Part shown: piece after piece, positions 15,082-63,326 of the stretch
Layout of the letters: each line of letters begins with the position of its first letter
Position numbering within the stretch: position 1 is the first letter of the stretch
Virus record (IMG/VR): IMGVR_UViG_3300032309_000931
Coordinates: 1-64,000 of that record
Source of the DNA: a virus
Strand: one strand, 5' to 3'
Length of the DNA stretch: 64,000 bases
The notes under the pieces: model-generated
What the model saw: only the letters and a program-made list of their open reading frames with translations
Told to the model about the DNA's origin: nothing
Databases searched by the model: none
Made by a program: the position numbers and the translations under genes

Positions 15082-15603
15082 TTAAATACTTTCGGACCAA
15101 ACAGGAACAAACCTGCCGTCTTCAGTTCTCGTATATGTCAGTATACCATCTCCCATACGCCTTGTCAACTCTTGTGGCGAAGGCGTAATGTCATTAGTAA
15201 CTAACCTGTCTTTTCTTGGTCTACCAATATGGTAGGTAGCAAGTATATCACGAATATCACGCACTTGTGATTCGGAGTAATAGCATCGCACTTGCCAGCC
15301 ACGCTCTCCGCCCTTCTGAGACCCCATAGGCTCTGGGATAACCCCACGTTTCATAAGGCTTGGCATATACTTTTTATGCCTATTTACTAGGATTGCTGTT
15401 TCTCCTACAGTGTAGGCTCTTTCACGATTACGCTTGAAGTCTACAACTAGACAGCTTTCAACCTGATCTTTAGTTATATTATATACGGACATAATTCCGT
15501 TAGATCTGTTGAAGTGGTGTATACGAACTAGGTCACCATTAATAAACCAGACCTTCTTGCTTCCTGGAATGACTGGTGACGAGTTGTATACCTCTCTGTC
15601 CAT
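15082..15603 (-). CDS. Putative DNA-binding protein with a MerR-like segment
   Basis: The 173-residue product contains YTVGETAILVNRHKKYMPSL followed by MKRGVIPEP and a beta-hairpin. This is the helix-turn-helix and wing order of MerR-type or excisionase-like DNA-binding domains. Further on, YYSESQVRDIRDILATYHI fits the next MerR helix. It may be the transcription regulator of the block or act at the replication/virion boundary. TAATG couples it to the virion gene at 15603-16037. Confidence 0.7.
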   Translation of the reverse strand: MDREVYNSSPVIPGSKKVWFINGDLVRIHHFNRSNGIMSVYNITKDQVESCLVVDFKRNRERAYTVGETAILVNRHKKYMPSLMKRGVIPEPMGSQKGGERGWQVRCYYSESQVRDIRDILATYHIGRPRKDRLVTNDITPSPQELTRRMGDGILTYTRTEDGRFVPVWSESI

Positions 15604-57328: not shown

Positions 57329-57502
57329 ATGGAAACAAATTATATGCACAAGGACTGGCTCACCGAACAATTTGTAGAGCTAAAGAAAACATCTCGTCAG
57401 ATCTCAAGAGAGATTAATGTATCAAGAAAGATTATTAACGTATGTCTATTGAACTTTGGTCTTATTACAAGAGATGAATTGGAAGATTCTGATCTACCGT
57501 GA
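57329..57502 (+). CDS. Leaderless helix-turn-helix mini-protein
   Basis: The 57-residue protein (SRQISREINVSRKIINVCLL) is a bare helix-turn-helix. It could be the regulator that binds the right-arm promoters or the upstream palindrome. The A of the ATG is seven positions after TATAAT and no Shine-Dalgarno exists. Its TGA overlaps the GTG of the next gene. Confidence 0.72.
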   Translation: METNYMHKDWLTEQFVELKKTSRQISREINVSRKIINVCLLNFGLITRDELEDSDLP

Positions 57503-57885: not shown

Positions 57886-58047
57886 CTAGGCTAGTGGAAT
57901 CCAAGACCCACACTCTAGGCACGTGTCCGTAGCAACGTGGAACCAAGATTCTTCGTCACACACTACGCAGTCAGCGATAGCGTATCCTTCAACGTGCTGT
58001 CCACTAGCGAGCATTTCGTCACATTCTTCTGAGAGTAGCATTTCCAT
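57886..58047 (-). CDS. Zinc-ribbon mini-protein (minus strand)
   Basis: The 53-residue product (AIADCVVCDEESW ... DTCLECGSWIPLA) has two CxxC pairs. AAAGGACAGACAA precedes the ATG, the same leader as the plus-strand cassettes, and a TGTCCGTGCT-(N6)-TAGTAT promoter lies upstream, so this is the only cassette that points left. Confidence 0.8.
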   Translation of the reverse strand: MEMLLSEECDEMLASGQHVEGYAIADCVVCDEESWFHVATDTCLECGSWIPLA

Positions 58048-58083: not shown

Positions 58084-58105
58084 ATACTATGTCATAGCAC
58101 GGACA
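58084..58105 (-). promoter_or_regulatory. Cassette promoter, minus strand
   Basis: TGTCCGTGCT then TAGTAT, 16-base offset, driving 58047. This is the sole reverse copy of the right-arm promoter family. Confidence 0.72.
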
Positions 58106-58165
58106 TATAACTACCAATACCGCACATATTTAGGTGAACAATAGGTTAACAAATTTTGCGCCCCC

Positions 58166-58189
58166 CACGCAACATTCTTGCGTGTTTTT
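58166..58189 (+). terminator. Intrinsic terminator hairpin
   Basis: CACGCAA-CATTC-TTGCGTG followed by TTTTT. This is a perfect seven-base stem, preceded by the GCGCCCC element found in several gaps. Confidence 0.82.
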
Positions 58190-58247
58190 ACGACTTACGC
58201 AATAAATCCCCAAATAGCCTGTTTTTAGCCCTATTCTGGTAGTTTTA

Positions 58248-58269
58248 TGTCGGTGGTCGATGTTACACT
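58248..58269 (+). promoter_or_regulatory. Cassette promoter 1
   Basis: TGTCGGTGGTC with TACACT 16 bases downstream of the first T. It transcribes the structured RNA element and the gene at 58389. Confidence 0.75.
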
Positions 58270-58288
58270 AAATATATAAACAAACAGA

Positions 58289-58370
58289 GAAACCAAAGAG
58301 AGTGAGCCTCTCAGAGCAAATAAGACCCAAAGGGTATGAGCCTCTCAGAGCAAATAAATCTCAAGGTTTC
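58289..58370 (+). ncRNA. Structured leader with two conserved loops
   Basis: GAAACC/GGTTTC and GAGA/TCTC form an outer stem. Inside lie two copies of TGAGCCTCTCAGAGCAAATAA (58303 and 58337) with ACCC-AAA-GGGT between. A related single-loop element is at 60375-60416. It lies in the 5' leader of the mini-gene at 58389 and may be a ligand- or protein-binding RNA. Confidence 0.55.
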
Positions 58371-58388
58371 AGATAAGGATAGAAAATA

Positions 58389-58499
58389 ATGAATGAATTT
58401 CACGGAAATTGCCAAAAGTGTGGCACTTGGAATCGAATTGCGTTTGTAGGTTCGATGTCCCTTAGCCAATTGCTTTGCAAGGCTTGCCGTAACAAGTAA
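58389..58499 (+). CDS. Zinc-ribbon mini-protein, paralogue A
   Basis: This 36-residue protein (MNEFHGNCQKCGTWNRIAFV, then LLCKACRNK) has CxxC...CxxC ligands and is a close paralogue of 58692-58814. It starts right after the structured leader, with AAGGATAG upstream and a TAATG junction. The base-pairing leader suggests regulated expression. Confidence 0.78.
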   Translation: MNEFHGNCQKCGTWNRIAFVGSMSLSQLLCKACRNK

Positions 58500-58645
58500 G
58501 CCCCATAGCTTGTGCATAAGTTATCCACAGGCGGCGCACCACCATATCTAGTAACATACTGACATTTACGTACTACATATAGATTCCCCTGAATTATAAC
58601 AAAATGGTAACATAGCGTAACAATAGGGCATATCGATTAGTTATA
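58500..58645 (+). other. Gap with DnaA box
   Basis: This holds the first perfect DnaA box (58521-58529) within TTATCCACAGGCGGCGCACC, and AT-rich sequence up to the next promoter. No gene is seen. Confidence 0.5.
58521..58529 (+). other. DnaA box 1
   Basis: TTATCCACA, a perfect match to the DnaA-box consensus TTATNCACA. Confidence 0.8.
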
Positions 58646-58667
58646 TGTCGGTGGTCTGTGTTAGGCT
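58646..58667 (+). promoter_or_regulatory. Cassette promoter 2
   Basis: TGTCGGTGGTC then TAGGCT (weaker -10), offset 16, driving 58692. Confidence 0.68.
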
Positions 58668-58691
58668 GTAGACATAAAGAAAGGAAATGAA

Positions 58692-58814
58692 ATGAACGAA
58701 TTTCACGGTAACTGCCAGAACTGTAAGGTCTGGACAAAGGTAGCCTTCAATGGCTCAATGGGTCTGAGTGAGTTGCTCTGCTCGCTCTGCCGTATGACAC
58801 AGGCTACCAAGTAG
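58692..58814 (+). CDS. Zinc-ribbon mini-protein, paralogue B
   Basis: This 40-residue protein (MNEFHGNCQNCKVWTKVAFN, LLCSLCRMTQATK) is a tandem duplicate of 58389 with the same CxxC pairs. AAAGGA lies upstream. Its TAG overlaps the front of the next promoter. Confidence 0.8.
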   Translation: MNEFHGNCQNCKVWTKVAFNGSMGLSELLCSLCRMTQATK

Positions 58815-58819
58815 TTTCG

Positions 58820-58841
58820 TGTCGTACCTCTAGGCTATACT
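58820..58841 (+). promoter_or_regulatory. Cassette promoter 3
   Basis: A variant core TGTCGTACCTC followed by TATACT at the same 16-base offset; drives 58867. Confidence 0.68.
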
Positions 58842-58866
58842 GATAACAACAAGTAAGGACAAACAA

Positions 58867-59046
58867 ATGGAAATCGAAAACGAAATCGACATCAACGAAG
58901 TTGAGGACATCAACATCAACACTCTCACGCCTAAGCAAATGGCACTACGCCTAAACGCTCTCGTTCGTTTGGCTCAGGGTGAAACATTCACTACCCACGA
59001 TTTTGAGGAAGCCCTAACGCTCACTCGCAAACTGGCTAAGCGATAG
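58867..59046 (+). CDS. Acidic small protein, unknown
   Basis: The 59-residue protein has an acidic front (MEIENEIDINEVEDININTL) and a helical end (FEEALTLTRKLAKR). Clear AAGGACAAAC upstream. No motif is recognised; an acidic DNA-mimic-like front is possible. Confidence 0.74.
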   Translation: MEIENEIDINEVEDININTLTPKQMALRLNALVRLAQGETFTTHDFEEALTLTRKLAKR

Positions 59047-59054
59047 GGGAACCA

Positions 59055-59144
59055 ATGCTAGTCTCAAACATCGCCACAGTAATTTGTGTGCTACTAATCG
59101 GATACCTAATAATCTACATCGCTCAGGAGATAAGCAATGACTAA
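59055..59144 (+). CDS. Membrane micropeptide
   Basis: This 29-residue peptide is almost all one transmembrane helix (IATVICVLLIGYLIIYIAQE). AGGGGAACCA precedes it. The end overlaps the next gene by eight bases. Confidence 0.65.
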   Translation: MLVSNIATVICVLLIGYLIIYIAQEISND

Positions 59145-59226
59145 ATGTAAAGAGTGTAAGCGTAACCTAACTGTAATAATCGAAAACTATCCTGATTTGT
59201 GTTGGTCGTGTGTGATGGAACAGTAG
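59137..59226 (+). CDS. Zinc-ribbon micropeptide
   Basis: MTKCKECKRNLTVIIENYPD, then LCWSCVMEQ: 29 residues with two CxxC pairs and little else. CAGGAGATA within the previous gene gives a ribosome-binding site. Confidence 0.72.
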   Translation: MTKCKECKRNLTVIIENYPDLCWSCVMEQ

Positions 59227-59236
59227 GCGGATCGAC

Positions 59237-59288
59237 TTATCCACAGCCCCCGAAAAGTTATCCACAGGGGGGCGCAAACTTATCCACA
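59237..59288 (+). other. Three DnaA boxes, helically phased
   Basis: Perfect TTATCCACA at 59237-59245, 59258-59266 and 59280-59288, in one orientation and spaced 21 and 22 bases (two helical turns), so DnaA molecules would sit on one face. Confidence 0.82.
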
Positions 59289-59347
59289 GCCTGTTAGTAA
59301 CTTAGTTACGAATTGTTACGAACTTTCCCTAAAATTCCCTAGTTTTA

Positions 59348-59369
59348 TGTCGGTGGTCAATGATAAAAT
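59348..59369 (+). promoter_or_regulatory. Cassette promoter 4
   Basis: TGTCGGTGGTC with TAAAAT at 16-base offset; a TTCCCT box lies upstream. Drives 59396. Confidence 0.73.
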
Positions 59370-59395
59370 GTAAACATACAAGCAAAGGACAAAAA

Positions 59396-59512
59396 ATGAA
59401 CTGGTATCAAGTACTCGTAGAGTATGATGAAATGATTGGCACAATCTATGTTGCGGCAGATGAATTGGAAGCATTCAAGGCAAAGTATAAAGTGCTAAGC
59501 GTAATCATCTAG
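59396..59512 (+). CDS. Small protein, unknown
   Basis: The 38-residue product (MNWYQVLVEYDEMIGTIYVA ... VLSVII) looks like a small alpha-beta fold; AAAGGAC upstream. It resembles the next gene in size and style (front TVLVE). No function is known. Confidence 0.74.
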   Translation: MNWYQVLVEYDEMIGTIYVAADELEAFKAKYKVLSVII

Positions 59513-59519
59513 GGTTTCG

Positions 59520-59541
59520 TGTCGGTGGTCGCTGGTATACT
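59520..59541 (+). promoter_or_regulatory. Cassette promoter 5
   Basis: TGTCGGTGGTC with TATACT at offset 16, eight bases after the previous TAG. Confidence 0.77.
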
Positions 59542-59568
59542 AATAACATAAACAAGAAAAGGACAATA

Positions 59569-59709
59569 ATGACAAAGAGTCGATACACAACCGTACTGGT
59601 GGAAATGCCAGACAAGATTTTTTTCCAAGCAATCCACATCTATGATTGGGCTAAGGAAATCGAATACTTGAAATCTCAGGGTGCTACTTCTATCACTATA
59701 GCCAAGTAG
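59569..59709 (+). CDS. Small protein, unknown
   Basis: A 46-residue protein (MTKSRYTTVLVEMPDKIFFQ ... LKSQGATSITIAK) with beta-alpha-beta character. AAAAGGACAATA precedes the ATG; its stop abuts a DnaA box. Confidence 0.75.
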   Translation: MTKSRYTTVLVEMPDKIFFQAIHIYDWAKEIEYLKSQGATSITIAK

Positions 59710-59782
59710 TTATCCACAGGGGTATCGAATGAGCCTGTAGTTATCCACAGCAAATAAGTCGATACCCCCAAAGTTATCCACA
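59710..59782 (+). other. Three DnaA boxes, helically phased
   Basis: Perfect TTATCCACA at 59710, 59741 and 59774, spacing 31 and 33 (three turns), same orientation as the others. Confidence 0.82.
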
Positions 59783-59793
59783 GGCTGCGCCCC

Positions 59794-59810
59794 ACGCAAG
59801 TTTATTGCGT
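59794..59810 (+). terminator. Terminator hairpin
   Basis: ACGCAA-GTTTA-TTGCGT followed by CTTTAT, six-base stem after GCGCCCC, the same design as at 58166. Confidence 0.68.
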
Positions 59811-59853
59811 CTTTATGAAGATAGTTGCGTTTTCCCTGAATTGGGGGGTTTTA

Positions 59854-59875
59854 TGTCGGTGGTCGGCTGTATACT
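59854..59875 (+). promoter_or_regulatory. Cassette promoter 6
   Basis: TGTCGGTGGTC with TATACT at offset 16, preceded by TTTTCCCTGAATT. Confidence 0.78.
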
Positions 59876-59901
59876 GATAACATAGACAGAAAAGGACAAC
59901 T

Positions 59902-60081
59902 ATGACAAATCAACTCCCAGAAAACAAGGCAACTGCCGAACAGTATGAAACTCTCAAATCGCTTATCACAAAGCGTTACCCTGACGCAGACCTGCTTCAC
60001 ATCTACGCTTCACTCTCAGGCGTACTTTCAGTAGGCGTATCTGAAGAGGCTATGGCACGACTTATCGAACTACACCAGTAG
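59902..60081 (+). CDS. Small helical protein, unknown
   Basis: The 59-residue protein (MTNQLPENKATAEQYETLKS ... SEEAMARLIELHQ) is mostly helical. AAAAGGACAAC is the ribosome-binding site. Family unknown. Confidence 0.75.
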   Translation: MTNQLPENKATAEQYETLKSLITKRYPDADLLHIYASLSGVLSVGVSEEAMARLIELHQ

Positions 60082-60086
60082 TTTCG

Positions 60087-60108
60087 TGTCGGTGCTCACC
60101 AGTATAAT
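60087..60108 (+). promoter_or_regulatory. Cassette promoter 7
   Basis: TGTCGGTGCTC with TATAAT at offset 16; begins five bases after the previous TAG. Confidence 0.78.
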
Positions 60109-60133
60109 TGTAATACAAGCAGAAAAGGAAAAA

Positions 60134-60367
60134 ATGGAACAACTAATCGGAACAAACGTAAAAACACACAACCACGCTTATCTTGGTGAGGTTCGCAACG
60201 TGTCTAGACTGTTTGTAAAGCCTATCTATCGTCACCTGAGAGGCATTGAGGCTAACGAGCCTTATGTTGCCTACGCTGTCGAAATCGAAGGCTCGGACAG
60301 TCCTAAAGGCTGGACAACGCTTATCGCTCGTGATGAAGCAGACATCCTGAAGCGTTACGCAGTCTAA
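60134..60367 (+). CDS. Small protein, unknown
   Basis: The 77-residue product (MEQLIGTNVKTHNHAYLGEV ... LIARDEADILKRYAV) is a small beta-rich fold with a helical end. I start at ATG 60134 with AAAAGGAAAAA upstream; the longer frame runs back through the promoter. Confidence 0.76.
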   Translation: MEQLIGTNVKTHNHAYLGEVRNVSRLFVKPIYRHLRGIEANEPYVAYAVEIEGSDSPKGWTTLIARDEADILKRYAV

Positions 60368-60530
60368 TCCGTAAGGGGAGAGAGTGAGCCTCGCAAGAGC
60401 AAATAAATCTCTCCCCAAACAGGATACATTCCAAAATGGGAATGTGTGTCAATCTCAAAAAAATGCGCCCCCCCCCACCCCTAGCCTTAATTACGAATTA
60501 AGAAAACAAATCCCAGATTCCCGAATTAGA
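60368..60530 (+). other. Gap with structured element and poly-C
   Basis: After the stem-loop at 60375-60416 comes AATGCG followed by C9 ACCCC and a TTCCCGAATT box before the next promoter. No gene is supported. Confidence 0.5.
60375..60416 (+). ncRNA. Structured repeat, single-loop copy
   Basis: GGGGAGAGA pairs perfectly with TCTCTCCCC around a 24-base loop GTGAGCCTCGCAAGAGC + AAATAAA, nearly the loop at 58303/58337. The stem sequence differs from the first element but stays paired. Confidence 0.58.
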
Positions 60531-60552
60531 TGTCGGTGGTCAATGTTATACT
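60531..60552 (+). promoter_or_regulatory. Cassette promoter 8
   Basis: TGTCGGTGGTC with TATACT at offset 16. Confidence 0.77.
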
Positions 60553-60579
60553 GTATACATAACGAAAGGACATAAGCAA

Positions 60580-60846
60580 ATGGCTTACTCAAACACTCAC
60601 GCAGATTTCTACCAGACGGCTATGGGGACTATGGTCACAGAGCCTCAGTCGGCTTGGGATACCTCTACTCACTGTGCAGACTGTGGCGTTCAGTACGCTT
60701 ACTGTGGCTGCCCCAACGAGGACATTGACGAGCCTGTTGATGGCTTTGCTGTCTGTGCTGTCTGCGACTATACCGTTCGTGGACTATTCTATCTCAATGG
60801 GGATTCAACTGGTCGCTGTGCTGGATGCCATAACTCTATTCGATAG
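60580..60846 (+). CDS. Double zinc-ribbon small protein
   Basis: The 88-residue protein has STHCADCGVQYAYCGCPNED and FAVCAVCDYTVRG ... GRCAGCHNSI, eight cysteines in two ribbons. CGAAAGGACATAAGCAA precedes the ATG. Probably a regulatory or scaffold protein; function unknown. Confidence 0.8.
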   Translation: MAYSNTHADFYQTAMGTMVTEPQSAWDTSTHCADCGVQYAYCGCPNEDIDEPVDGFAVCAVCDYTVRGLFYLNGDSTGRCAGCHNSIR

Positions 60847-60849
60847 GAG

Positions 60850-60858
60850 TTATCCACA
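60850..60858 (+). other. DnaA box 8
   Basis: TTATCCACA immediately after the stop at 60846, then GGCTGGGGCGC. Confidence 0.8.
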
Positions 60859-60933
60859 GGCTGGGGCGCAGCTTTTGATCCTAGACATAATTACGTAAGC
60901 ATTAAAAATACCCTGGAAATTTCCCTAGTTTTA

Positions 60934-60955
60934 TGTCGGTGCTCAGATGTATAAT
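60934..60955 (+). promoter_or_regulatory. Cassette promoter 9
   Basis: TGTCGGTGCTC with TATAAT at offset 16, preceded by TTTCCCTAG. Confidence 0.78.
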
Positions 60956-60985
60956 TATATTATCAACCAAACAAAGGACAAAGTA

Positions 60986-61537
60986 ATGACTACTCTCACC
61001 GCTAACGAAATTCACACCGCAACTGCTACAGATTTGTACCGTGACCTGATTGTTCGTGCTACTCTTGGACAGGTCGAACAGGCTAGTGTCTGGTATCACG
61101 AAGCACAAGAAGTTGCCCAAGAGGTTGCTCGTAATCTGGACACAACGCTAGAGGTTGGTGCTAGTGTCGTATCTGCGTTTTCTCCTCGTGAGCGTTGGGC
61201 AAGCAACATCGAAAAGGCTGTGGCGTTCTCACTTGGACACACGCCTAAAGGATTGGGCAACAACCTCAAAATGGCACAGTCCTCGCTGACTGCTGGATTC
61301 TATGCCCTCAAGGGTCTCAAGACTAATGCGTTTGCTCGTGCCATTGCTGGAGATACTGACGCTGTTGTGATTGACATTTGGATGATGAGAGCGGCAGGTA
61401 TGGAAACTGATAGCCCAACTCAAGGACAGTATTTCGCACTCTCACTTGCTTGCCGTAATGTCGCTAAAGAATTTGGGCTTACTCCTCGCACCGCACAGGC
61501 TCTGATTTGGATTCTCGTGAGAGGCTCAGCAATCTAA
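60986..61537 (+). CDS. DUF7178-like actinophage protein
   Basis: The 183-residue product fits the layout of a widespread actinophage protein family: VVSAFSPRERWASNIEKAVA, GLGNNLKMAQSSL, GLKTNAFARAIAGDTDAVVI and IDIWMMRAAGM, then a QALIWILVRGSA end. The all-helical design with a conserved D-x-W motif recalls helix-hairpin-helix base-excision glycosylases, but catalysis is unproven. ATG 60986 follows ACAAAGGACAA. Confidence 0.78.
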   Translation: MTTLTANEIHTATATDLYRDLIVRATLGQVEQASVWYHEAQEVAQEVARNLDTTLEVGASVVSAFSPRERWASNIEKAVAFSLGHTPKGLGNNLKMAQSSLTAGFYALKGLKTNAFARAIAGDTDAVVIDIWMMRAAGMETDSPTQGQYFALSLACRNVAKEFGLTPRTAQALIWILVRGSAI

Positions 61538-61564
61538 GGGCTACCCCGAAAGGGGTTGCGCCCC

Positions 61565-61581
61565 ACGCAGCTTTCTTGCGT
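61565..61581 (+). terminator. Weak terminator hairpin
   Basis: ACGCAG pairs with TTGCGT (one G-T), after GCGCCCC; AATT follows rather than a T-run. Same family as 58166 and 59794. Confidence 0.45.
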
Positions 61582-61625
61582 AATTACGAACAATTTTTGT
61601 TTTTCCCTAAATTTGGGTAGTTATG

Positions 61626-61647
61626 TGTCGGTGCTCTGATGTATACT
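61626..61647 (+). promoter_or_regulatory. Cassette promoter 10
   Basis: TGTCGGTGCTC with TATACT at offset 16; ATG is seven positions after the -10, so the transcript is leaderless. Confidence 0.78.
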
Positions 61648-61653
61648 AATACT

Positions 61654-61818
61654 ATGAAGAAAAAGAACCCAACTCACAAAGGTATTGAGAACAAGCCCTA
61701 CATTGAGGCTATGCGTGAATTGCGTAGGTCTAACGCAGCCACTACCCACGACAACCGCCCTAACCGTTTGCGTACTCGCAAAGCAATCAAAACCCAAGCA
61801 ATCAAGGAGAACGAATAA
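61654..61818 (+). CDS. Basic small protein, leaderless
   Basis: The 54-residue protein is strongly basic (MKKKNPTHKGIENKPYIEAM, NRLRTRKAIKTQ), suggesting nucleic-acid binding. No Shine-Dalgarno lies before it. TAATG couples it to the next gene. Confidence 0.75.
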   Translation: MKKKNPTHKGIENKPYIEAMRELRRSNAATTHDNRPNRLRTRKAIKTQAIKENE

Positions 61819-61985
61819 TGGAATGTGAATTCTGCACTAATGAAAAACTGGCTACCGTTTCGGTTATGCACCTGCGTGACCGTATCGAACAAGCCGCCTG
61901 TGGCAAGTGTGCCAACGACCTATCTGATGAAAAGTGGGTAGTCACTCACGAATTCGACACATCTATCTGGGATTTTGCAGGGTAG
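61818..61985 (+). CDS. Zinc-ribbon mini-protein
   Basis: The 55-residue product (MECEFCTNEK ... AACGKCANDLSDEKW) has two CxxC pairs. It is translated from the TAATG junction with AAGGAGAACGA in front. Probably part of a two-gene cassette with 61654. Confidence 0.78.
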   Translation: MECEFCTNEKLATVSVMHLRDRIEQAACGKCANDLSDEKWVVTHEFDTSIWDFAG

Positions 61986-61990
61986 TTATG

Positions 61991-62012
61991 TGTCGGTGGT
62001 CTAGGTTATAAT
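61991..62012 (+). promoter_or_regulatory. Cassette promoter 11
   Basis: TGTCGGTGGTC with TATAAT at offset 16. Confidence 0.78.
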
Positions 62013-62040
62013 AGTAATACGAACAAAGAAAAGGACAGAA

Positions 62041-62214
62041 ATGAAAAAGTACAACTTCACTGGTTTCGCATTCGGTAGTAACGGAGAAATGGTTTTCCGT
62101 ATTGAGGTTCTGAACCACACCGAAAACGGAACAAATGTTTCCACCCAAATCGATTTGGAACTCACACCAGAGGAACGAACCGAACTCATCACCCAACTTA
62201 TCTCAATCAAGTAG
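62041..62214 (+). CDS. Small beta-rich protein, unknown
   Basis: The 57-residue protein (MKKYNFTGFAFGSNGEMVFR ... ERTELITQLISIK) has two beta strands and a helix. AAAAGGACAGAA upstream. Unknown function. Confidence 0.75.
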   Translation: MKKYNFTGFAFGSNGEMVFRIEVLNHTENGTNVSTQIDLELTPEERTELITQLISIK

Positions 62215-62219
62215 TTTGG

Positions 62220-62241
62220 TGTCGGTGCTTCACGCTATAAT
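62220..62241 (+). promoter_or_regulatory. Cassette promoter 12
   Basis: TGTCGGTGCTT with TATAAT at offset 16; drives a chain of overlapping mini-genes. Confidence 0.76.
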
Positions 62242-62265
62242 AGAACTACGAACAAAGGACAATAA

Positions 62266-62445
62266 ATGAAAGACACAATCAACCGTTCAGGTGAGGTAAT
62301 CGAAAATCTCACAATCGCACAGGGTGACCGCCGTTATGCTTACGCATTTGCGTTTGGATTTGCGTGGTCTTTGCTCTCGGAAAAGAACCGTAAAGAGTTG
62401 CTGAAAATCTCAGAACGAAAAGCACAAGAAAAGGACAACGACTAA
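62266..62445 (+). CDS. Small protein, unknown
   Basis: The 59-residue protein (MKDTINRSGEVIENLTIAQG ... SERKAQEKDND) has a short hydrophobic middle (YAYAFAFGFAWSLL). It ends in a TAATG junction with the next gene. AAAGGACAATAA upstream. Confidence 0.74.
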   Translation: MKDTINRSGEVIENLTIAQGDRRYAYAFAFGFAWSLLSEKNRKELLKISERKAQEKDND

Positions 62446-62642
62446 TGACAAAGTATCCAGAAATCGAAGTACAACTTACAGGACAAGACGGCAACGCATT
62501 CGCAATTATGGGTGCGGTATCTCGTGAACTCCGCAAGGCTGGGGTATCCAAAGAGGAAATCAACGAATACACTACGCAATCTATGTCTGGCGACTATGAC
62601 AACCTTTTGCGTACTGCTATGGCTTGGGTGAGTGTATCCTAA
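62445..62642 (+). CDS. Small protein, unknown
   Basis: The 65-residue product has a beta strand and helices (MTKYPEIEVQLTGQDGNAFA; RELRKAGVSKEEINEYTTQS). This pattern resembles a family of small phage proteins of unknown role. Starts at TAATG and ends at TAATG. Confidence 0.76.
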   Translation: MTKYPEIEVQLTGQDGNAFAIMGAVSRELRKAGVSKEEINEYTTQSMSGDYDNLLRTAMAWVSVS

Positions 62643-62821
62643 TGATGACACGCAAAGACTATGTAGCCGTTTCAGAATTGCTGAACACCTACGCTCTCAA
62701 AATAGATGAGCAAACATTCGACCTACTCATTCACGACTTTGCTGGACTGATGGCAAAGGACAATGAGCGTTTCATCGCTGACCGTTTCATCTCCGCTTGC
62801 TGGAATGGCGAGAATGCTTGA
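62642..62821 (+). CDS. Small helical protein of a TRKDY-type family
   Basis: The 59-residue protein (MMTRKDYVAVSELLNTYALK ... KDNERFIADRFISACW) matches a small, widely found phage and bacterial family with TRKDY at the front and F-R/D-RF-ACG at the end; function unknown. It overlaps the next micropeptide. Confidence 0.76.
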   Translation: MMTRKDYVAVSELLNTYALKIDEQTFDLLIHDFAGLMAKDNERFIADRFISACWNGENA

Positions 62822-62879
62822 GATTATTGTTATCACGCTGGGGGTATTGGCAGTACTCCTGGCGTGGTTCAATGACTAA
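62805..62879 (+). CDS. Membrane micropeptide
   Basis: MARMLEIIVITLGVLAVLLA plus WFND: one transmembrane helix in 24 residues (or 21 from ATG 62814). It overlaps the previous gene and resembles 59055. Confidence 0.6.
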   Translation: MARMLEIIVITLGVLAVLLAWFND

Positions 62880-62998
62880 AATTTTGCGCCCCCCTGCCCT
62901 CACAAACCTATTACTAACCTTACGATCTTTTTCCCGAAATTCACAGAGTTTGATGTCGGTGGTACTTGGTATAATAGAAACATAACGAAAGGACACTA
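62880..62998 (+). other. Gap with GCGCCCC element and promoter 13
   Basis: GCGCCCCCC at 62884, no hairpin of note, then TTTTTCCCGAAATT and the promoter. No gene is seen. Confidence 0.5.
62954..62975 (+). promoter_or_regulatory. Cassette promoter 13
   Basis: TGTCGGTGGTA with TATAAT at offset 16. Confidence 0.76.
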
Positions 62999-63304
62999 AT
63001 GAACGACGGAACATACCTCAACCTTGACGGAAAGTTTATTCTCTCTCACGCCAAGTCTGGCTATTGGGTAGCCGTTCACAAGTACGACAGCCTTGACGAC
63101 ACTATTTCAGGGGATTACGTAGGCGTGTGGACAAATCCCGAAACTGGCGTTATGTACCTTGACCGTAGCGTTTGGGTGTCTGACTTGGACAACGCTATCG
63201 CTCTGGGTAAGTCACAAGGACAATTGGCTATCTGGGACTGTGCCAATGAAACAGAAATCTGGCTCAACGAATACTTTGCCGATGTATTCAAAGACGAAGT
63301 TTGA
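62999..63304 (+). CDS. Conserved-looking phage protein, unknown
   Basis: The 101-residue product (SGYWVAVHKYDSLDDTISGD; YLDRSVWVSDLDNAIALGKS; QLAIWDCANETEIWL) fits a small phage family with repeated aromatic beta strands. ACGAAAGGACACTAATG gives the start. Unknown role. Confidence 0.78.
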   Translation: MNDGTYLNLDGKFILSHAKSGYWVAVHKYDSLDDTISGDYVGVWTNPETGVMYLDRSVWVSDLDNAIALGKSQGQLAIWDCANETEIWLNEYFADVFKDEV

Positions 63305-63326
63305 TGTCGGTACTCCCCTGTATAAT
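63305..63326 (+). promoter_or_regulatory. Cassette promoter 14
   Basis: A variant core TGTCGGTACTC with TATAAT at offset 16; ATG is seven positions after it, so it is leaderless. Confidence 0.75.

Follow-up and report, generated by a model that had tools for sequence, protein, structure and literature searches.

An array of RecA-NDp-type promoters in the small-gene arm of an uncultured phage, probably read by the host activator PafBC

The stretch of DNA considered here (the window) comprises bases 1-64000 of the 93,875-base metagenomic virus record IMGVR_UViG_3300032309_000931 of IMG/VR, and at 58084-63326 it carries an array of promoter-like elements, each composed of a conserved box at a fixed distance from a -10 hexamer, along an arm of small genes. 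The genes for a portal, a tape measure, a terminase and a DnaE-like DNA polymerase in the window are those of a tailed phage, which also encodes a primase, a DnaB-type helicase and RecA. The polymerase is 54-56% identical to those of Stanwilliamsviridae (Streptomyces phages, e.g. Samisti12), and the DUF932 protein shares 54% identity with its counterpart in the same group (Samisti12). Because both proteins resemble those of Streptomyces phages, the host is almost certainly an actinobacterium. No relative of the window phage at the DNA level was found in the annotated phage collection, and a search of the record against Rfam matched tRNAs alone.

All 15 copies that the original prediction, made from the sequence of the window, had placed in this array are found, 14 of them on the plus strand and one on the minus strand (58105 down to 58084), and in 15/15 the -10 box starts 16 bases from the first T of the motif. 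The shared motif TGTCGGTG[GC]TC is exact in ten copies and carries one mismatch in three (62220, 62954 and 63305); with two mismatches in the minus-strand copy and three in the copy at 58820 (TGTCGTACCTC), its description as common to the array fits most copies and is slightly generous for these two. The degenerate minus-strand copy (58084..58105; TGTCCGTGCTA N5 TAGTAT) is divergent and lies about 30 nt before the ATG of a short leftward open reading frame (ORF) at 57886-58047 (-), which points away from the array. On the plus strand, the elements, termed -26/-10 promoters here, begin with 58248..58269 (TGTCGGTGGTC N5 TACACT; gene at 58389), 58646..58667 (-10 TAGGCT; gene at 58692), 58820..58841 (variant -26 box TGTCGTACCTC, -10 TATACT; gene at 58867) and 59348..59369 (-10 TAAAAT; gene at 59396). 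The -10 box is TATACT at 59520..59541, 59854..59875 and 60531..60552, which precede genes at 59569, 59902 and 60580, and also at 61626..61647. It is TATAAT at 60087..60108 (gene at 60134), 60934..60955 (DUF7178 gene at 60986), 61991..62012 (gene at 62041), 62220..62241 (TGTCGGTGCTT; gene at 62266), 62954..62975 (TGTCGGTGGTA; gene at 62999) and 63305..63326 (TGTCGGTACTC). Start codons mostly lie 17-24 nt past the predicted +1, and the promoters at 61626 and 63305 are of a leaderless type that runs directly into an ATG 6 nt past the -10 box. Leaderless transcripts of this kind are common in actinobacteria.

The array does not end with the window. When the motif was sought in the complete phage and its relatives, as the original prediction had proposed, six more plus-strand copies were located at 64064, 64516, 65544, 66904, 68142 and 68800, bringing the total in the record to about 21 copies that reach 68.8 kb, and sites were found in other IMG/VR records. 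The TGTCGGTG core is present in 17 of the 21 copies, the variant cores being TGTCGGTA at 63305, TGTCCGTG at 64516 and 58105, and TGTCGTAC at 58820 and 68800. The deviant box TGTCGTACCTC is common to 58820 and 68800 and may represent a second version of the element, not decay. Across the record, TGTCRGTG-N8-TANNNT has 16 sites, whereas 200 dinucleotide shuffles gave 0.13 on average and never more than 2. At other offsets the same record yields zero sites for 12-15, 17 and 19-21, and one each for 10, 11, 18 and 22.

This arrangement, i.e. TGTCGGTG, 8 nt and TANNNT, is nearly certainly the published RecA-NDp/PafBC promoter and not a new motif. The RecA-NDp consensus reads tTGTCRgtg - 8 nt - TannnT (PMC5656591) and describes the recA P1 type promoters of Actinomycetes (Gamulin 2004; PMC5656591; PMC11804915). 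In vivo mapping of binding sites assigns it to PafBC, a heterodimer of WYL-domain proteins (PMC6789036), in which PafB occupies the -26 motif and PafC contacts domain 4 of sigma-A, with activation by single-stranded DNA (ssDNA) in the WYL domains (PMC11804915). Like host RecA-NDp promoters, the array combines the TGTCRGTG core with a spacing of exactly 8 nt to TANNNT, has no -35 element and mostly presents G as the ninth base; in other phage groups, both A and G are used at the R position. Unlike host RecA-NDp promoters, the array gathers about 20 copies in a single arm of a phage. The core of eight bases and the spacer of 8 nt together therefore give the 16-base offset, and the motif appears between the usual -35 and -10 positions because the RecA-NDp element sits at -26. 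The original prediction was right about that location and about the lack of an ordinary -35, the latter being borne out by the scores: the best TTGACA match of the array promoters does not exceed that of random positions (2.45/6 vs a background of 2.93). Furthermore, a weight matrix trained solely on recA sites placed 18 of 20 plus-strand phage sites within the top 280 of 187,704 positions, although this matrix is imperfect in that unrelated positions also score high, since its training sites, taken from related genomes, have spacer bases in common. Five column-shuffled versions of the matrix placed no phage site in the top 20.

On the host side, the motif is present in 277 of 297 sampled genomes of the class Actinomycetes, where the highest count is 198 sites per genome; a reversed-pattern control is near zero in these 297 genomes and finds none in the 198-site genome. 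Among small genomes of the class, 26 of 30 have it upstream of recA with at most one mismatch (13 exact), and in none of the 30 recA upstream regions does it occur at another offset between 10 and 22, on the opposite strand or as the reversed word. At several of these recA loci a LexA-type box, TCGAACAGATGTTCG, comes right after the site. Of the 34 Actinomycetes genomes searched for PafC, the one PafBC subunit covered, 30 encode it. In a sample of 397 genomes drawn at phylum level, the combination of the TGTCGGTGG box and a near-consensus -10 is rare (11 sites), and no good RecA-NDp site was found in the recA regions of the small genomes from this sample. An exact scan of all genomes with the consensus -10 returned 58 scattered matches, fewer than the roughly 120 given by an even-composition estimate, and no host assignment. 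Pseudonocardia eucalypti has, in one genome, five sites TGTCGGTGSTCGAACATATAATCGAA (L062, L064, L072, L100 and L106) just before possible ORF starts, and Actinomadura and Spirillospora have sites resembling TGTCGGTGSTCGAACATATAATCGAA.

Among phages, 1-24 sites per record were counted in 20 other IMG/VR records, where the reversed pattern gave zero. In a scan of IMG/VR with TGTCRGTGG-N7-TATAAT (offset 16), many multi-match stretches were among the matches listed; when the two words were set at offsets 15 and 17 as a control, there were 100 and 59 stretches, respectively, all of them single-match among those listed. Eighty sampled offset-16 loci contain 304 sites, and 47/80 have at least three, always on a single strand; no locus with at least three same-strand sites is included in the offset-15 and offset-17 sets. 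Nearly every locus with an array has genes in common with the G000/G013/G019 type or with the G014 type, so the arrays belong mainly to one large uncultured clade related to Stanwilliamsviridae. The G014 polymerase is 54% identical to that of the window phage, about as distant as those of the Streptomyces phages. A 48.6 kb record, G020 (L205), looks unrelated, with only six ORFs in common with the window phage; it has eight -26 promoters, four per strand, and is probably a second lineage, and two of its plus-strand promoters come after hairpin-like sequences. All carrier phages are known from metagenomic records, which may be fragmentary. The flanks vary between phage groups, the core and its spacing stay constant, and this combination points to a shared reader in the host.

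Cultured actinophages present a different picture. The exact site is absent from Samisti12, Annadreamy, Wakanda, Kimona, Sheen, TM4, Giles and phiC31, two scattered copies occur in Patience, and an array is found in none of the nine cultured actinophages checked (Samisti12, Annadreamy, Wakanda and these six others). Similarly, DSL-LC01, a phage of 54% GC assembled from lake water, has no site at offsets 12-20. Actinophage status alone therefore does not yield the motif. Samisti12, a member of the Stanwilliamsviridae, resembles the window phage in that small genes form an arm close to the DUF932 gene, but this arm has no RecA-NDp array; its -10 boxes include TAGACT and are in places accompanied by TTGACA.

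Regarding the factor that reads these promoters, no WYL protein was found in the record of the window phage or in 20 related records (21 in total, some of them fragments), and host PafBC is the likely reader. Here, the proposal of a regulon read through one factor stands insofar as the promoters form one coherent class; that this factor is encoded by the phage is improbable given the host motif and the 21 records without a WYL protein. The original prediction had named three candidate regulators. The products at 57329 and 3970 match HNH/DNA-binding PHROGs, the latter with an additional sub-threshold match to sigma-70 region 4, and the product at 15082, thought to be MerR-like, matches a PHROG of unknown function and has no MerR match, so the family searches lend no support to a MerR-like or helix-turn-helix (HTH) phage regulator among them. 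Nothing points to an altered polymerase, which had also been suggested, and the sigma-type -10 boxes rule out promoters of a single-subunit phage RNA polymerase. The case that the original prediction had named against itself, with the motif being simply the host promoter type, proved half right: the type is that of the host, but it is the inducible DNA-damage class and not the housekeeping one.

The best overall explanation, which we hold with good confidence, is that these are PafBC-type promoters of an actinophage that uses host PafBC to express its small-gene arm. In mycobacteria, PafBC is activated by ssDNA and bridges sigma-A to the -26 element, a mechanism termed sigma adaptation (PMC11804915). 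By analogy, the PafBC of the phage's host would bind ssDNA, possibly arising from phage replication, recombination or breakdown of host DNA, bridge sigma-A and the -26 element of the array, and start phage transcription, so that the small genes of the arm, about 20 on the plus strand, would be expressed as a DNA-damage regulon. Judging by gene size, position and comparison with relatives, the array genes are probably early or host-takeover genes. The broader statement, in which the small genes of a large uncultured actinophage clade form a PafBC regulon and some 20 promoters are fired alongside host recA once host PafBC senses ssDNA made or provoked by the phage, is favored with less assurance.

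Several observations weigh against PafBC as the reader. Most phage sites have near-consensus -10 boxes, and those of host sites are usually weaker; such phage promoters might not need PafBC, or they may be stronger than the host's and retain some basal PafBC-independent activity. The leading t of the consensus is replaced by A or G in the phage; this base is lower-case, i.e. weak, in the published consensus (PMC5656591), and in several host recA sites the base before TGTC is C or A. The Streptomyces phage relatives manage without the motif although the class Actinomycetes carries it broadly. In addition, PafBC accounts for neither of two upstream sequences. One is AGTTTNR, which abuts the motif and, as had been predicted, is conserved, within the window phage's own group and in no other. 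The other is a TTCCC/TCCCG box about 12-23 nt upstream of TGTC, described earlier as frequent and present in about half of the own-group sites (23/44), the rest being without it.

These extra boxes could be the sites of a phage-encoded activator or repressor that reads the -26 box, having converged on the PafBC element or competing for it, for example by silencing the array or displacing PafBC. The small HTH proteins at 57329 and 3970 would be available for such a role, but they fall in HNH/DNA-binding families and not among known regulators of such kind, and this improbable scenario must also contend with a spacing identical to that of host recA promoters, with a core common to phage groups whose flanks differ, and with the lack of a WYL protein noted above. 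Marginally less probable still is that the array consists of strong housekeeping promoters of the extended -10 type, used directly by sigma-A, in which the TGTCGGTG box is a minor or spacer element without PafBC. The -10 boxes, mostly TATAAT or TATACT, and the TG just upstream of them in many array copies agree with this. On the other hand, a box of 8-11 bases is kept at fixed spacing in hundreds of sites while the flanks vary, and elsewhere in the window phage there are canonical TTGACA-17-TATAAT promoters that lack the box, e.g. at 65633 (+), 72909 (-) and 73904 (-). It is very improbable that the reader is a different host regulator of this position, e.g. ClgR or a WYL homodimer like SiwR: ClgR is reported to recognize the recA P1 motif (as cited in PMC5656591) and SiwR likewise acts at the -26 region, but in vivo mapping of binding sites gives RecA-NDp to PafBC (PMC6789036), and SiwR is rejected as the reader, since it uses a different motif, an imperfect palindrome with a GGA triplet (PMC10693628).

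Known phages that rely on host DNA-damage regulators mainly involve LexA repression in temperate phages. A second point of comparison is provided by the middle promoters of T4, which combine a box for the phage-encoded protein MotA with sigma appropriation. As in the array, a dedicated box replaces the -35 at a fixed distance from a sigma-type -10 in many promoters; unlike MotA, no phage-encoded reader was found by family searches in the case described here (small HTH proteins exist), and the box is a host element. Closest among earlier cases is the Bacillus thuringiensis phage GIL01, which is controlled by host LexA (PMC4551915). Both systems would place phage promoters under a host DNA-damage regulator, but LexA is a repressor at a temperate switch, and PafBC would be an activator of many parallel promoters. 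No report of phage promoters of the PafBC/RecA-NDp class was found in the titles and abstracts of the openly licensed literature, which is not proof of novelty. Taken at face value, the array suggests that a virus wires its genes into the DNA-damage alarm system of its host, and it appears that an entire phage clade has based one of its gene arms on an activator induced by damage. If so, the host alarm would serve as a timing device for the phage, phage and host repair genes would compete for one activator, and pafBC mutants are predicted to resist the phages of this clade or to delay their growth. The trigger (ssDNA), the reader (PafBC) and the mechanism (sigma adaptation) would all be testable in laboratory actinobacteria, and the array provides a signature by which uncultured phages can be linked to hosts among the actinobacteria.

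Further features accompany the array. At 65544, a -26 promoter stands in tandem with a perfect TTGACA-17-TATAAT promoter about 90 nt downstream, and both are kept in seven sequences, as is the conserved leader AGGCAGGGARAYGAAGTCGGAAGTCCCC between them (G000 65544-65720; L009:1645-1821). This short leader could be an RNA element, and the tandem pair is reminiscent of mycobacterial recA with its two promoters. Of the 11 DnaA-box words TTATCCACA in the record, eight, each on the plus strand, are located between the array genes at 58521-60850, and the relatives G003 and G007 have 11 and 8 such words, respectively, on one strand in their fetched array regions; these words possibly mark a replication origin or a DnaA-binding cluster. 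Finally, the genes at 58389-58499 and 58692-58814, each with its own -26 promoter, encode adjacent paralogous mini-proteins (MNEFHGNCQ...) with CxxC pairs that are zinc-ribbon-like, with a weak Pfam match.

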